Assembly: GCF_000426685.1 (NCBI RefSeq)
Contig: NZ_AUFV01000003.1
Location: forward strand, 62,001-126,000
DNA: 64,000 bases
Origin: Solimonas flava DSM 18980
Lineage (GTDB): Bacteria > Pseudomonadota > Gammaproteobacteria > Nevskiales > Nevskiaceae
Direction of reading: 5' to 3'
This document shows positions 58,616 through 64,000 of the stretch, one piece after another. Each line of letters opens with the position of its first letter. The stretch's first letter is position 1. Made by a program: the position numbers and the translations under genes. The notes under the pieces are model-generated. The model worked only from the letters and a program-made list of their open reading frames with translations. It did not search any database and had not been told where the DNA came from.

Positions 58616-59718
58616 ACGCCCGCAAGAAGGCCTGTCCCGCCCCCCGCCATTTCGCCCCGCGCCTGGCCATCGCACTGTCGCTGGCCGTCACGCTCGGCGC
58701 CTGCCACAAGCAGGAGACGGCAGCCGAGGCGCCGAAGCCGGTGATGACCGTCGAACTGGTGACGCCGCAGGCCCAGCAGTGGCCGCAGCAGCTGCCGGCC
58801 AGCGGCAACATCGCCGCCTGGCAGGAGGCGATCGTCGGCGCCGAAGTCGGCGGCGCACGTCTGCTCGAGGTCAAGGTCAATGTCGGCGACGTCGTCAGGA
58901 AAGGCGACGTGCTCGCGAGCCTCGATCCGGCGACGCTGCGCGCGCAGGTCGCGCAGCAGGACGCCAACGTCGCGCAGGCGATCGCCAACCTCGCCAAGGC
59001 GCGCGCCGACGCCAAGCGCGCCGAGGAACTCGACAAGACCGGCTCGATCAGCCAGCAGGAGATCGACCAGTACCGCACCGCCGCGGCGACCGCCGACGCC
59101 CAGCTCAAGCTGGCGCGCGCGCAGTACGACGTCGCCAGCCTGCAGCTGCGCTATGCGCGCGTCGTCGCGCCGGACGACGGCGTGATTTCCTCGCGCACGG
59201 CGACGGTCGGCGCCGTGGTCGGTGCCGGCACCGAGCTGTTCCGCCTGATTCGCGGCCAGCGCCTCGAATGGCGCGCCGAAGTGCCGGGCGACTGGCTCGG
59301 CCGGCTGCGGCCGGGCATGCGCGCCGACATCCGCCGCCCCGGCGACGGCACGGCGGTCGCCGGCACGATCCGCCAGATCGCGCCGACCGTCGACCTGAAG
59401 ACGCGCAACGCACTGGTTTACGTCGACCTGCCGAAGAACGCCGGCCTCAGCGCCGGCCAGTTCGCCGAAGGCGGCTTCGAGCTCGCCGCGCAACCGGTGC
59501 TGAGCCTGCCGGAATCGGCGATCGTGCTGCGCGACGGTCACCGCTACGTGATGACGGTCGATGACCACAACATCGTCCACCAGCTGAAGATCGAGACCGG
59601 CGCGCGTCAGGGCGAGGCGATCGCCGTCAGCGGCGGGCTGACCACGGCGACGCGCGTCGTCAAGGCCGGCGGCAGCTTCATCGGCGACGGCGACCTGATC
59701 GGCGTGGAGGGCACATGA
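58612..59718 (+). CDS. RND efflux periplasmic adaptor (membrane fusion protein)
   Basis: 368 residues. A lipoprotein-type leader (SLAVTLGACHKQE) precedes the MFP order of barrel-sandwich hybrid (AEVGGARLLEVKVNVGDVVR, KGDVLASLDPATLRAQVAQQ), a coiled-coil hairpin (about 110-180), and beta-barrel and membrane-proximal domains. It links the inner-membrane pump to the outer-membrane channel. Both ends overlap the neighbouring genes by ATGA, so all three pump parts are co-translated. Confidence 0.93.
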   Translation: MNARKKACPAPRHFAPRLAIALSLAVTLGACHKQETAAEAPKPVMTVELVTPQAQQWPQQLPASGNIAAWQEAIVGAEVGGARLLEVKVNVGDVVRKGDVLASLDPATLRAQVAQQDANVAQAIANLAKARADAKRAEELDKTGSISQQEIDQYRTAAATADAQLKLARAQYDVASLQLRYARVVAPDDGVISSRTATVGAVVGAGTELFRLIRGQRLEWRAEVPGDWLGRLRPGMRADIRRPGDGTAVAGTIRQIAPTVDLKTRNALVYVDLPKNAGLSAGQFAEGGFELAAQPVLSLPESAIVLRDGHRYVMTVDDHNIVHQLKIETGARQGEAIAVSGGLTTATRVVKAGGSFIGDGDLIGVEGT

Positions 59719-62700
59719 ACATCAACTTCTCCGCCTGGTCGATCCACAAGCCGACGCCGGCGGTCCTGCTGTTCTTCCTCGCGACGGTCGCCGGCTTCTT
59801 CGGCTTCCGCTCGCTGCAGATCGCCAACATGCCGGACTTCGATTTCCCCGGCATCACGGTCGACGTGCAGCTGCCGGGCGCGACGCCGTCGCAGCTCGAG
59901 AACGAAGTCACGCGCAAGATCGAGGACGCCACCGCCAACATCCCCGGCGCGCGCCACGTCACCTCGACGATCGGCGACGGCTATTCATCGACGTTCATCG
60001 AGTTCGAGATCGAGAAGAACGTGCAGGAAGCGCTCGACGACGTGCGCGACGCCGTCACCGGCGTGCGCTCGGCGCTGCCGGCCGACATCCTCGAACCGAC
60101 GATCCGCCGCGTGACCACCAACGGCGGCTCGATCGCGACGTACACGGTCACCGCCGACAACATGGACGCGACCGACCTGTCGTGGTTCGTCGACAATATC
60201 GTCAGCAAGGCGATCATGCCGATCAAGGGCGTCGGCAGCGTGTCGCGCTTCGGCGGCGTGTCGCGCGAGATCCGCGTCGAGCTCGATCCGGTCAAGCTGC
60301 AGGCCTACGGCGTCACCGCCGGCGAAGTGTCGCGCCAGCTCAACAACATGCAGCAGGAAGCACCCGGCGGCCGCGGCGATCTCGGCGGCCTCGAACAGGC
60401 CGTGCGCACGATCGGCACGGTCAAGACGGCCGACGACCTGCGCGGCTACAGCTTCCCGCTCGCCGACGGCCGGCGCGTGCGCCTCGACCAGATCGCGCGC
60501 GTGCGCGACACCGCCACCGAGCCGCGCCAGGCGGCGATCCTCGACGGCAAGCCGGTGCTGTCGTTCCGCGCCTACCGCGCGCGCGGCGCGGCCGAGGCCG
60601 ACACCGCGAAGGCGATCATCGCCAAGGTCGAAGAACTCGGCAAACGCTATCCGCACGTGCACTTCGAGCAGGTCTACACCACGGTCGGACCGATCGAGCA
60701 TCAGTACCACGCTTCGATGCAGGCGCTGCTCGAAGGCGCGATCCTCGCCGTCATCGTCGTCTGGATCTTCCTGCGCGACTGGCGCGCGACGCTGATCTCG
60801 GCGGTCGCGCTGCCGCTGTCGGTGGTGCCGACCTTCGCCTTCATCCACTGGGCCGGCTACACACTCAACACCATCACGCTGCTGGCGCTGACGCTGGTGA
60901 TCGGCATCCTCGTCGACGACGCCATCGTCGAAGTCGAGAACATCATGCGCCATCTGCGCATGGGCAAGACGCCGAAGCAGGCCGCGCTCGACGCCGCCGA
61001 CGAGATCGGTCTGGCGGTGATCGCGACCTCGCTGACGCTGGTCTCGGTGTTCCTGCCGGTGGCGCTGATGCCCGGCATTTCGGGCCTGATCTTCAAGCAG
61101 TTCGGCTGGACCGCGTCGATCGCGATCCTCGCCTCGCTGGTCGTCGCGCGCCTGCTGACGCCGATGATGGCCGCCTATCTGCTGAGCGGCGCAGCGGATT
61201 CCGAGCACGAGCACGAGGACGGCTGGGTCATGCGCCGCTACCTCAAGGCGGTGCGCACCTGCCTGCAGCACCCGTGGCTGACCTGCCTCGGCTCGGCAGC
61301 GTTCTTCGCCGCGTCGGTCGCACTGTTCGTCGTGCTGCCGAAGACCTTCCTCAATGCCGGCGATCAGGCGCTGACGATCGTCACCATCGAGGCGCCGCCG
61401 GGTTCGACACTGGCGCAGACGCTGGCGATGAACGACAGCGCCTACCAGCGCCTGCGCGATCTGCCCGAGATCCGCCACGTCTACACCATCATCGGCAACG
61501 GCGTGACCGCCGGCAGCACGGTGTCGAGCGGCGGCAGTGTCACCACGGCGACGCTGCTGATTCCGCTGACGCCGCAGAAGGACCGCAAGCGCTCGCAGCA
61601 GGAAGTCGAGACCGAGATCGGCCAGCGCCTGGCGAAACTGCCCGGCGCTCGCATCACGGTCGGCGGCAACGGCAACGGCCAGCAGCTGACGGTGCAGCTG
61701 ACCAGCGAGGACCCGCAGATGCTGCAGGCCACCGCCGAGAAGGTGCTGCGCGACATCCGCACCCTGCACGGCCTCGGTGGCGCCACCTCGTCGGCCAGCC
61801 TGCTGCGCCCGGAACTGGTGATCCGCCCGGACTTCGCGCGCGCCGCCGAACTCGGCGTCACCGCCGAGGCGATCGGCGACGCCGTGCGCATCGCCACCTC
61901 GGGCGACTACGAGGTGATCCTGCCGAAACTGAATCTGCCGGAACGCCAGCTCTTCATCCGCACGATGCTCGATCCGGCCGCGCGCACCGATCTGGAAACG
62001 ATCCGCCAGCTGCGCGTCGCCTCGAGCGCCGGCCCGGTGCCGCTCGGCAACGTCGCCAGCGTCGCCATCGAAGGCGGCCCGGCGCAGATCGACCGCTACG
62101 ACCGCGCGCGCAACGTGACGCTGACCGTCAACCTGCAGGGCCGTCCGCTCGGAGAGGTCAACAAGCAAGTCGAGGCGCTGCCGTCGATGCAGCATCTGCC
62201 GACGCAGGTGCGGCGCGGCGAAGGCGGCGACGTCGAGTTCATGAACGATCTGTTCGGCAATTTCGCGGTCGCGATGCTGACCGGCATCTTCTGTGTGTAC
62301 GCCGTGATGGTGCTGCTGTTCCACGACTTCGCGCAGCCGGTCACCGTGCTCGCGGCGCTGCCGCTCGCCGCCGGCGGTGCGCTGGGCGCGCTGGTGCTCG
62401 GCGGCATGAGCCTGTCGCTGGCGTCGCTGATCGGCCTGCTGATGCTGATCGGCATCGTCAGCAAGAACTCGATCCTTCTCGTCGAGTACGCGATCGCGGC
62501 GCGCCACCAGCGCGGCCTGTCGCGCCTCGACGCGATCATCGACGCCTGCCACAAGCGCGCCCGGCCGATCGTCATGACCACGGTGGCGATGGTCGCCGGC
62601 ATGCTGCCGATGGCGCTGAACATCAGCGGCGCCGATTCCGGTTTCCGCGCGCCGATGGCCACCGCGGTGATCGGCGGCCTGATCACCTCGACGGTGCTGA

Positions 62701-62816
62701 GCCTGGTGGTCGTGCCGGTCGTCTACGAGATCGTCGACGACATCGAAGGCTGGATCGGCCGCCGGATCTTCCGCCGCAAGGCGCCGGCGCTGCCGGCCGA
62801 GCTGCACCTGAGCTGA
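59715..62816 (+). CDS. RND (HAE1/AcrB-type) efflux pump inner-membrane subunit
   Basis: 1033 residues, full length. The N-terminal helix is followed by MPDFDFPGITVDVQLPGATP. Transmembrane helix 4 carries the proton-relay motif LVIGILVDDAIVEVENIMRH (two adjacent Asp), and the second half has LIGIVSKNSILLVEYAIAAR. It exports a substrate by proton antiport; the drug range cannot be read. Unlike multidrug AcrB, the R(G/N)-rich linker is short. The gene's last 29 bp, including the stop, are duplicated in tandem just downstream. Confidence 0.94.
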   Translation: MNINFSAWSIHKPTPAVLLFFLATVAGFFGFRSLQIANMPDFDFPGITVDVQLPGATPSQLENEVTRKIEDATANIPGARHVTSTIGDGYSSTFIEFEIEKNVQEALDDVRDAVTGVRSALPADILEPTIRRVTTNGGSIATYTVTADNMDATDLSWFVDNIVSKAIMPIKGVGSVSRFGGVSREIRVELDPVKLQAYGVTAGEVSRQLNNMQQEAPGGRGDLGGLEQAVRTIGTVKTADDLRGYSFPLADGRRVRLDQIARVRDTATEPRQAAILDGKPVLSFRAYRARGAAEADTAKAIIAKVEELGKRYPHVHFEQVYTTVGPIEHQYHASMQALLEGAILAVIVVWIFLRDWRATLISAVALPLSVVPTFAFIHWAGYTLNTITLLALTLVIGILVDDAIVEVENIMRHLRMGKTPKQAALDAADEIGLAVIATSLTLVSVFLPVALMPGISGLIFKQFGWTASIAILASLVVARLLTPMMAAYLLSGAADSEHEHEDGWVMRRYLKAVRTCLQHPWLTCLGSAAFFAASVALFVVLPKTFLNAGDQALTIVTIEAPPGSTLAQTLAMNDSAYQRLRDLPEIRHVYTIIGNGVTAGSTVSSGGSVTTATLLIPLTPQKDRKRSQQEVETEIGQRLAKLPGARITVGGNGNGQQLTVQLTSEDPQMLQATAEKVLRDIRTLHGLGGATSSASLLRPELVIRPDFARAAELGVTAEAIGDAVRIATSGDYEVILPKLNLPERQLFIRTMLDPAARTDLETIRQLRVASSAGPVPLGNVASVAIEGGPAQIDRYDRARNVTLTVNLQGRPLGEVNKQVEALPSMQHLPTQVRRGEGGDVEFMNDLFGNFAVAMLTGIFCVYAVMVLLFHDFAQPVTVLAALPLAAGGALGALVLGGMSLSLASLIGLLMLIGIVSKNSILLVEYAIAARHQRGLSRLDAIIDACHKRARPIVMTTVAMVAGMLPMALNISGADSGFRAPMATAVIGGLITSTVLSLVVVPVVYEIVDDIEGWIGRRIFRRKAPALPAELHLS

Positions 62817-62847
62817 GGCTGCCGGCCGAGCTGCATCTGAGCTGAGG
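62790..62847. repeat. 29-bp tandem duplication at 3' end of RND pump gene
   Basis: The unit (62790-62818), starting CTGCCGGCCGAGCTGCAC, is repeated at 62819-62847 with one C/T change. The first copy contains the last codons and TGA stop of the pump gene; the second reproduces that tail after the stop. Confidence 0.9.
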
Positions 62848-62912
62848 CAGCCCGCCGCGCCGCGTACCGCTGCGGCGGGCCGCGGCCGGCCGCTCCGTCC
62901 GGGGTCCGGGCA

Positions 62913-63025
62913 ATAAAAAACCCGATGGCCAGGGGAGGAGCCATCGGGTCATGCTTTCCGGCTTGGGGATGCCGGACCCGCCCAGGGAGTGGAGGCGGGG
63001 AGCGGGACAGGGAGTGATCCCACTC
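62913..63025 (-). ncRNA. Predicted small RNA A downstream of polA
   Basis: About 112 nt on the minus strand. It begins near 63025, five to seven bases after a sigma-E-like -10, and ends in an intrinsic terminator. The RNA has a C-rich 5' half (ACUCCCUGUCCCGCUCCCCG, then a GCC stem with loop UCCACUCCCU), a central hairpin UCCGGC/GCCGGA, and the terminator stem CCCGAUGGC/GCCAUCGGG. Forty-seven bases (62969-63015) are identical to small RNA B. C-rich loops, and the location next to polA and facing engB, match the placement of Spot 42, ErsA and C-rich Xanthomonas sRNAs. Targets would be G-rich ribosome-binding sites. Confidence 0.75.
62915..62948 (-). terminator. Intrinsic terminator of small RNA A
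   Basis: In the minus sense, a 9-bp perfect stem CCCGATGGC/GCCATCGGG (62948-62940 and 62929-62921) is followed immediately by six U residues (A-run 62915-62920). Confidence 0.88.
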
Positions 63026-63031
63026 GCAAGA

Positions 63032-63060
63032 TTGGACGCCGGCCGCCGCGGAAAAGTTCC
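63032..63060 (-). promoter_or_regulatory. Sigma-E/AlgU-type promoter of small RNA A
   Basis: Minus-strand -35 GGAACTT (63060-63054), a 17-bp spacer and -10 TCCAA (63036-63032). This fits the RpoE/AlgU consensus GAACTT-N16/17-TCnnA and is aligned with the promoter of the second copy. Confidence 0.65.
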
Positions 63061-63121
63061 GGCACGTTCCGAAGTTTTTTTCGCGAAGCCGGCGGCGAAT
63101 GCCAAGCACCGGATTCGACAA

Positions 63122-63237
63122 ATAAAAAAGCCCGGTGACTTGGGGGAAGCCACCGGGCCACGCTTTCCGGCCATGGGGGGATGCCGGACCCGCCCAGGGA
63201 GTGGAGGCGGGGAGCGGGACAGGGAGTATCGCCGCTC
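63122..63237 (-). ncRNA. Predicted small RNA B downstream of polA
   Basis: About 115 nt on the minus strand. It starts near 63237 and ends at the terminator at 63124-63158. It has the same architecture as small RNA A: an identical 47-nt C-rich 5' part (63227-63181), a central hairpin with a longer loop, and a terminator stem with a different sequence but the same length. The divergence is concentrated in stems and promoter spacers, while the C-rich loops are unchanged, as expected if the loops pair with targets. It begins 153 bp beyond the polA stop. Confidence 0.75.
63124..63158 (-). terminator. Intrinsic terminator of small RNA B
   Basis: Minus-sense stem GCCCGGTG/CACCGGGC (63158-63151 and 63137-63130) followed by six U residues (A-run 63124-63129). 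Confidence 0.88.
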
Positions 63238-63243
63238 AGGGGA

Positions 63244-63272
63244 TTAGATGTGGCCCCCGCCGGGGAAGTTCA
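63244..63272 (-). promoter_or_regulatory. Sigma-E/AlgU-type promoter of small RNA B
   Basis: Minus-strand -35 TGAACTT (63272-63266), a 17-bp spacer and -10 TCTAA (63248-63244). Spacing is the same as in the promoter of copy A. Confidence 0.65.
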
Positions 63273-63389
63273 ATGGCGTCGTGCGATCTTTTTTTGCGGC
63301 GCCGCAATTCGCCCTGGGGCCGCAATGAAATCAAGGGTCTGCAGAGGCTGATGTTCGGGTCAGTCCGCGGTTCTGGAACTAAATTTCGT

Positions 63390-64000
63390 TCAGCTTCCGC
63401 TACTTGCGTGGCCGCTCGCGGCGTGGGCCGAATCCCACTCGGAACCGAAGCCGAAATCGGCGACCAGCGGCACATCGAGCTGGGCGATGCGCACCATGCG
63501 CGCGGCGATCAGCGGCGCCTGCTCGCGCAGCCGCGCCTCCGGACCTTCGAACACCAGTTCGTCGTGCACCTGCATGATCATGCGGATGTCCGGCGCCCGG
63601 CGCTGCAGATAGCGGGCGACGTCGACCATCGCCAGCTTGATGAGGTCGGCGGCGGTGCCCTGCAGCGGCGCGTTGATCGCGGTGCGCTCGGCGTACTGGC
63701 GCTGGGCCTGGTTGCTGGCGGCGATGTTCGGCAGGTACAGGCGGCGGCCGAACAGGGTCTCGACGTAGCCGGTCTCGCGCGCGCGCATGCGCGTCGTGTC
63801 CATGAAGTGCTTGACGCCCGGATAGCGGCCGAAGAAGCGATCGATGTAGTCCTGCGCCTCGCCGCGCGCAATGCCGAGCTGGCGCGCCAGGCCGAACGCC
63901 GACATGCCGTAGATCAGGCCGAAGTTGATCGCCTTGGCGGCGCGGCGCTGGTCGGTGCCGACCTGTTCGAGCGGCAGGCCGAAGACCTCGGCGGCGGTCG
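63390..64000 (-). CDS. polA: DNA polymerase I, C-terminal part (5' end outside window)
   Basis: About 203 C-terminal residues of family A polymerase. Motif B (O-helix) RRAAKAINFGLIYGMSAFGL and motif C MIMQVHDELVFEGPE are intact, as is ERTAINAPLQGTAADLIKLA. The usual WDxAH ending is present (EWDSAH) and is followed by a 10-residue Ser/Ala/Gly-rich tail that most homologues lack. The gene continues beyond the right edge. Two small-RNA genes follow its stop on the same strand. Confidence 0.96.
   Translation of the reverse strand, partial: TAAEVFGLPLEQVGTDQRRAAKAINFGLIYGMSAFGLARQLGIARGEAQDYIDRFFGRYPGVKHFMDTTRMRARETGYVETLFGRRLYLPNIAASNQAQRQYAERTAINAPLQGTAADLIKLAMVDVARYLQRRAPDIRMIMQVHDELVFEGPEARLREQAPLIAARMVRIAQLDVPLVADFGFGSEWDSAHAASGHASSGS

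Follow-up and report, generated by a model that had tools for sequence, protein, structure and literature searches.

What is encoded downstream of polA in Solimonas flava, at the end of the 64,000-nt stretch of DNA analysed here (the window), where two C-rich sequences that are 85% identical follow one another on the minus strand? Direct reading of the sequence places there two units of about 115 nt, head to tail and 212 nt apart, between polA and a convergent RND efflux permease gene. In each, two promoter-like boxes are followed by four hairpins, whose loops are C-rich, and by a U-tract (Table 1). The first-pass annotation had described a shared identical segment of 47 nt and the gene order polA-engB; the segment is present, but its longest identical run is 51 nt (63227-63177 and 63015-62965), and polA does lie upstream on the same strand, whereas engB is not adjacent, the convergent gene being the permease. 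The explanation that we regard as likely is that the units are tandem sibling small RNAs (sRNAs) of the anti-hemB family, probably related to ErsA, each with its own sigma-E promoter and terminator, and that they block translation by loop pairing.

A terminator-like hairpin with a U-tract closes each unit (63159-63129 and 62950-62919), in agreement with the earlier claim of one intrinsic terminator per unit, and a terminator scan returned three sites, one of them nested, against 0.6 expected from shuffles. A promoter scan of 62700-63500 gave no sigma-70-like promoter. The starts near 63238 (unit A) and 63026 (unit B) and the end of unit A near 63123 are predicted. Two further elements of the window are a direct repeat of 29 bp in 2.4 copies (62789-62857), which spans the stop codon of the RND permease, and a Cobalamin riboswitch (RF00174, 26061-26281, minus strand, 108.3 bits).

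Table 1. Features of the sRNA locus and its two neighbours, in window coordinates
Feature	Position	Strand	Basis
polA 3' part (DNA polymerase I)	63390..64000, continues past window	-	NCBIfam DNA polymerase I; the 202-aa fragment scores 282.5 bits against a cut-off of 720 set for the whole protein, the window containing the C-terminal part only
A7 tract upstream of unit A -35 box	63289..63295	-	sequence; A/T-rich at like distance in related promoters
Unit A sigma-E-type promoter	63244..63271	-	GAACTT (63271-63266), N17, TCTAA (63248-63244)
Unit A, polA-proximal sRNA (predicted ends)	63123..63238	-	RF02837 63122-63213, 56.5 bits; model R1 63123-63249, 130.9 bits; fold
Unit A hairpin 1, ACUCCCU in loop	63212..63237	-	alignment and fold
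Unit A hairpin 2, CCACUCCC in loop	63189..63211	-	alignment and fold
Unit A hairpin 3, loop AUCCCCCCAUG	63166..63188	-	alignment and fold
Unit A hairpin 4 and U-tract, intrinsic terminator, C-rich loop	63124..63159	-	fold, terminator scan
A7 tract upstream of unit B -35 box	63075..63081	-	sequence; A/T-rich at like distance in related promoters
Unit B sigma-E-type promoter	63032..63059	-	GAACTT (63059-63054), N17, TCCAA (63036-63032)
Unit B, polA-distal sRNA (predicted start)	62913..63026	-	RF02837 62912-63001, 56.2 bits; model R1 62913-63037, 127.8 bits; fold
Unit B hairpin 1, ACUCCCU in loop	63000..63025	-	alignment and fold
Unit B hairpin 2, CCACUCCC in loop	62977..62999	-	alignment and fold
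Unit B hairpin 3, loop AUCCCCAA	62957..62976	-	alignment and fold
Unit B hairpin 4 and U-tract, intrinsic terminator, UCCCC in loop	62913..62950	-	fold, terminator scan
RND efflux permease, convergent neighbour outside the sRNA system	59715..62816	+	NCBIfam models for RND permeases; the best gives 708 bits against a cut-off of 1250

Family membership and structure

The two units belong to the anti-hemB family, which is already known and named. In the Rfam covariance search (cmscan of the window) that the first-pass annotation had suggested, both match RF02837 (anti-hemB, Burkholderia RNA 7) over the full model (1-81) and exceed its cut-off of 49.5 bits, and they are the only matches to this model in their own genome at E up to 0.001. 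Model R1, built from an alignment (A1) of 38 units from this genome and its relatives, also finds only the two units in the genome at E up to 1, with 150 of 1335 first-look candidates scored. The 81-position Rfam model starts at the second hairpin, and hairpin 1 with its CUCCC loop is an addition in the aligned units; this extra 5' hairpin and the two separately promoted copies distinguish the locus from anti-hemB as modelled. Adjacency to hemB is not seen here, the neighbours being polA and the permease, and it is not required by the model; the idea that members lie antisense to or beside hemB was read from the family name alone. Near other family members, a hemB motif search found none in one set and two isolated, untrusted short-motif matches in the 29 best loci.

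The family has been described as ncS04 in B. cenocepacia, a 105-nt expressed RNA that is strongly folded (z -5.5) and said to bind Hfq (PMC5688073). Its level changed significantly in none of seven conditions, RpoE envelope stress not being among them (PMC5688073). The accessible parts of the literature examined state no function for the anti-hemB family, and the accession RF02837 appears in no paper of the open-access literature searched.

Both units fold better than all of 200 shuffles (z -4.36 and -5.25). RNAalifold on A1 gives 28 pairs, 15 of them with two-sided changes, and a covariation score of 0.312 against 0.172 for shuffled alignments, with none of 500 shuffles as high. In this structure 91.4% of cells pair, two-sided changes occur in 111 cells against 37 in shuffles, and shifting it by 1-3 columns lowers the covariation score greatly, although the structure was derived from A1 itself and is favoured by this comparison. 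Unlike the stems, loop 2 (CUCCCUG) is invariant in all 38 units, and CUCCC in loop 1 is at least 90% conserved; in the sequences read from a second family of the order, hairpin 1 lacks a C-rich loop. It could be argued that the units are not genes at all and that a GC-rich repeat folds and resembles terminators by chance. The sequence is indeed GC-rich, and a permissive RF02837 search (E up to 0.001) matched 3 of 14 control genomes, none over cut-off. Against this stand the covariation, the conserved promoters, Rfam scores over cut-off and the way the copies stay distinct across genomes, and we regard such an accident as very improbable. That two sRNA genes lie on the minus strand, as first proposed, is borne out by the Rfam family, the covariation and conservation in relatives.

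Several other sRNAs invite comparison, and sX13, Spot 42 and alpha-r7 are discussed in PMC3771888 as sRNAs located after polA. The sX13 RNA of Xanthomonadaceae is 115 nt long, lies 175 bp after polA in Xcv, has C-rich loops and represses through these and G-rich motifs independently of Hfq (PMC3771888). Its model (RF02232) matches both units over its full length and on the right strand, at 24.8 and 20.4 bits (E 0.012 and 0.12), but an unrelated leader on the opposite strand reaches 0.022 and the cut-off is 50 bits; membership was rejected, and sX13 has three stem-loops where the units have four hairpins. The alpha-r7 model likewise matches both units below cut-off, on the right strand and in full. 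Because the unrelated leader family has a similar E, these likenesses are treated as a lead only; of the resemblance to sX13 noted at first, the sub-threshold match stands, at an E no better than chance-looking matches in the same list. Membership of Spot 42 was also rejected, since RF00021 (cut-off 80 bits) picks up neither unit at E 10; Spot 42 is found at the same place after polA in Edwardsiella (L067), where R1 does not match it at E 0.1. The Neisseria pair NgncR_162/163 are adjacent siblings like the units, 78% identical, and repress by obstructing ribosome binding sites (PMC9973317). They have three stem-loops and are likened to the units by description, not by sequence or structure, and the accessible text of PMC9973317 contains no sigma-E control.

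Sigma-E-type promoters

The boxes GAACTT-N17-TC(C/T)AA that had been reported upstream of each unit are there, and are the only matches to GAACTT-N16..18-TCYAA on either strand of the window. The pattern GAACTT-N16/17-TCYRA occurs at 4 sites in the 4.46-Mb genome, 2 of which are the units, but its reversed control occurs 8 times, so the genome-wide count was dropped as evidence and only the placement is notable. The third site (G000:C1:100782-100808, minus strand, locus L199) precedes by about 40 nt a gene for a BepA-like M48 protease, which scores 350 bits against a cut-off of 570 and may plausibly belong to the sigma-E regulon as well; the fourth is without a clear gene.

Sigma-E-type sequence is enriched before related units. 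A strict box (GAACTT-N15..17-TC) precedes 57 of 114 unit occurrences and 8 of 11,063 control stretches from the same loci, and a looser one (GAACNN, TCNNV) precedes 91 of 114 against 174 of 11,063; the occurrences come from three R1 locus sets (26 + 59 + 29), are mutually related and include at least two counted twice, and since R1 starts at the -10, that box is partly built in to the count while the -35 is not. Among the first order-level loci, 44 units of which two are listed twice, the strict box is present in 30 and the loose box in 35. Values are lower for the RF02837 loci of the class than for the R1 set, with 13 strict and 15 loose boxes in the best 29. Sigma-E promoters are laid out with boxes at this spacing and with an upstream A/T tract. 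Of the 113 distinct promoters with a box, 97 have a spacer of 16 and the other 16 one of 17, the length found in both units here, and the stretch 13-20 nt before the -35 is 65-72% A/T, compared with 35-50% in the 12 nt on each side; seven A occupy this position in both units. Judged from these comparisons, a sigma-E promoter sequence appears to be conserved before the units in relatives, in its strict form in about half of the occurrences.

Three successive genes of the genome encode the matching regulators: rpoE exceeds its cut-off, rseA exceeds that of Pfam, and the third, an rseB-like gene, stays below that of NCBIfam. No match to the loose pattern was found in the 5 kb around rpoE. It is possible that the units are family sRNAs whose transcription relies on a different ECF sigma factor or on more than one factor, and that envelope stress is not their main signal. 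This would fit the strict box being present in only about half of the occurrences (in the class-wide set as in the R1 sets), the lack of such a box in the 5 kb examined around rpoE, and the constitutive presence of ncS04 in seven conditions (PMC5688073). We consider it unlikely, given the looser box in most units but few controls, the almost fixed spacing with its A/T tract, and AlgU control of ErsA at the same place. On the favoured reading, envelope stress would switch on a separate sigma-E (RpoE/AlgU) promoter in front of each unit, and each transcript would stop at the terminator of that unit.

Relatives, ErsA and the tandem copies

By its polA fragment, the nearest named genome is that of Solimonas soli (86%; NCBI order Nevskiales), which has two units too. 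When 80 polA loci from named records were scanned with R1 (E up to 0.1), 26 matches turned up in 24 of the loci. All are downstream of polA on its strand, at distances of 27 to 953 nt counted from where the aligned part of polA ends. One of these loci, L080 (4020-4144, plus strand; Steroidobacteraceae), has its unit about 950 nt from polA and no box by the pattern used. Rfam models run on 40 of the 80 loci identified ErsA in five, anti-hemB in four (one with two units) and Spot 42 in one, which confirms the earlier statement that ErsA and Spot 42 share the polA locus. More widely, R1 matches at E up to 1e-5 in 73 of 274 genomes drawn from the class and RF02837 at E up to 1e-6 in 94 of 369, 21 of them over cut-off, in scans whose stricter filters lose weak matches. 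In 12 class loci without a same-strand upstream polA recognised by tblastn, a GTPase that we take to be of the EngB type, from the motif GRSNAGKSS seen by eye, is convergent downstream in 7, upstream in 2 and in neither place in 3. A motif search of flanks of up to 1.5 kb in the 29 best RF02837 loci located an upstream polA in 14 and a convergent engB in 15; 8 have neither gene. From these flank readings the order polA-sRNA-engB is common elsewhere, in line with the first-pass annotation, with engB not a neighbour in this window.

The units are probably related to ErsA (Pseudomon-1, RF01719) of Pseudomonas, an AlgU-controlled sRNA that represses the porin gene oprD with Hfq (PMC7264166). Like the units, ErsA sits after polA, and R1 overlaps all five ErsA genes found (L044, L058, L062, L072 and L109), with E values of 0.05, 0.056, 4.4e-4, 4.4e-5 and 0.0099, three of them weak. 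Its sigma-E/AlgU-type control is what the promoter sequence predicts for the units, and GAACTA or GAACCT boxes are visible before its five copies. ErsA is single in the loci seen, while the units here are doubled. Membership of the ErsA family itself was rejected, as RF01719 (cut-off 50 bits) fails to pick up either unit, even with E raised to 10. A possible intermediate form is seen at L075 (3193-3324, plus strand), where R1 matches at E 2.8e-8 and ErsA, below cut-off, at 0.0067.

The duplication had been thought a new arrangement, a claim that is overturned by the relatives. RF02837 at E up to 0.001 matches in 58 of 61 genomes, this one included, 12 of them over cut-off; some weak single matches are doubtful, because 3 of the 14 control genomes also match. 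At least two matches within 1.6 kb of the next occur in 22 of the 61 genomes, as clusters of two in 8, three in 8, four in 3 and five in 3, and 5 of the 11 genomes of the genus have clusters. In a different family of the order, R1 finds six units in tandem after polA (L118, 878-2016, minus strand), and close pairs occur outside the order (G320, G209, G379, G165, G395 and G207 by RF02837, G081 by R1). In a tree of 86 units made by a quick method, with 40 of 82 inner branches unresolved, the first copies of this genome and of a relative, G007, group together (support 85), and so do their second copies (support 83). Between the two genomes the copies are 97% and 94% identical, compared with 85% within this genome. 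As like copies group across genomes, the duplication is older than at least one species split, that from G007. The three copies of another genome, G015, cluster together (support 87), which suggests a separate duplication.

Proposed loop pairing, targets and meaning

The C-rich loops, ACUCCCU in hairpins 1 and 2 and UCCCC-type in 3 and 4, would be presented on rigid GC stems and would pair with G-rich Shine-Dalgarno regions of mRNAs so that translation is blocked, probably with Hfq. Two copies would give higher output, and through loops 3 and 4, which differ, each copy could also have targets of its own. Translational repression was chosen as the mode of action because of the relatives, not from target evidence. 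The first-pass annotation had suggested pairing with G-rich leaders; the loops are complementary to Shine-Dalgarno sequences, which makes such pairing plausible, but nothing specific emerged from target screens run with controls.

The pattern AGGGAGT-N1-12-ATG occurs at 30 sites in the genome, against 7 for the reversed pattern. The set first seemed rich in porins and exported proteins, on the annotation of 10 of its 22 long ORFs, which had been chosen for their exported look. A control motif, AGGGAG with any base but T after it, has 68 sites against 17 for its reversed form, and 30 of the 68 were examined. By a crude signal-peptide rule 10 of 22 ORFs in the AGGGAGT set and 9 of 22 in the control are exported, and enrichment of exported-protein targets was dropped. 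Mean duplex energies barely differ, at -16.1 and -15.5 kcal/mol (23 ORFs each). Across the 11 genus genomes, AGGGAGTGG-N0-9-ATG has 18 sites (7 reversed), which precede differing genes except for petB in three genomes (G000, G003 and G007). The petB start of this genome has AGGGAGTGG, complementary to loop 2, at G000:C4:305686-305702 (minus strand, locus L180); the other 8 of the 11 petB starts are without it. A Porin_5 gene has a motif match in 2 of the 11. Taken over the genome motif sets, the 11 genus genomes and the duplex energies, the search for specific targets at translation starts gave no signal beyond the control motif.

Alternatively, C-rich RNAs may act mainly by titration of RNA or protein, and tandem copies may be favoured since titration needs mass. 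The target screens without a specific signal and the copy number of up to six in one relative would be in keeping with this. It is set against conserved CUCCC loops complementary to Shine-Dalgarno sequences and the action of sX13 and ErsA on mRNAs (PMC3771888, PMC7264166), and we hold it to be improbable, more so than control by another sigma factor. Weighing against loop pairing by sigma-E-controlled, ErsA-related siblings, which we still prefer, are the absent target signal, the absent box in the 5 kb around rpoE, the strict box in only 13 of the 29 best RF02837 loci, the unchanged level of ncS04 in seven conditions, the Hfq-independence of sX13 and the ErsA model without a match.

The anti-hemB family, sRNAs after polA (PMC3771888) and sibling sRNAs (PMC9973317) are already known. 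In the accessible open-access literature, no paper was found that places anti-hemB RNAs under sigma-E, describes tandem arrays of them or connects them with ErsA. More tentatively, and with somewhat less than even confidence, it can be proposed that one ancestral sigma-E-controlled sRNA with C-rich loops at polA-engB gave rise to anti-hemB and ErsA, perhaps also to sX13 and alpha-r7. In Nevskiales it would have been repeatedly amplified into arrays of two to six separately promoted units, which would serve as a gene-dosage amplifier of the envelope-stress response, with shared loops for common targets and diverged terminal loops for private ones. The conserved sigma-E-type promoter gives the anti-hemB family a testable role in envelope stress and may join it to ErsA. 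The tandem arrays would serve as a natural experiment on two questions, how the gene dosage of an sRNA matters and how sibling sRNAs drift towards new targets.
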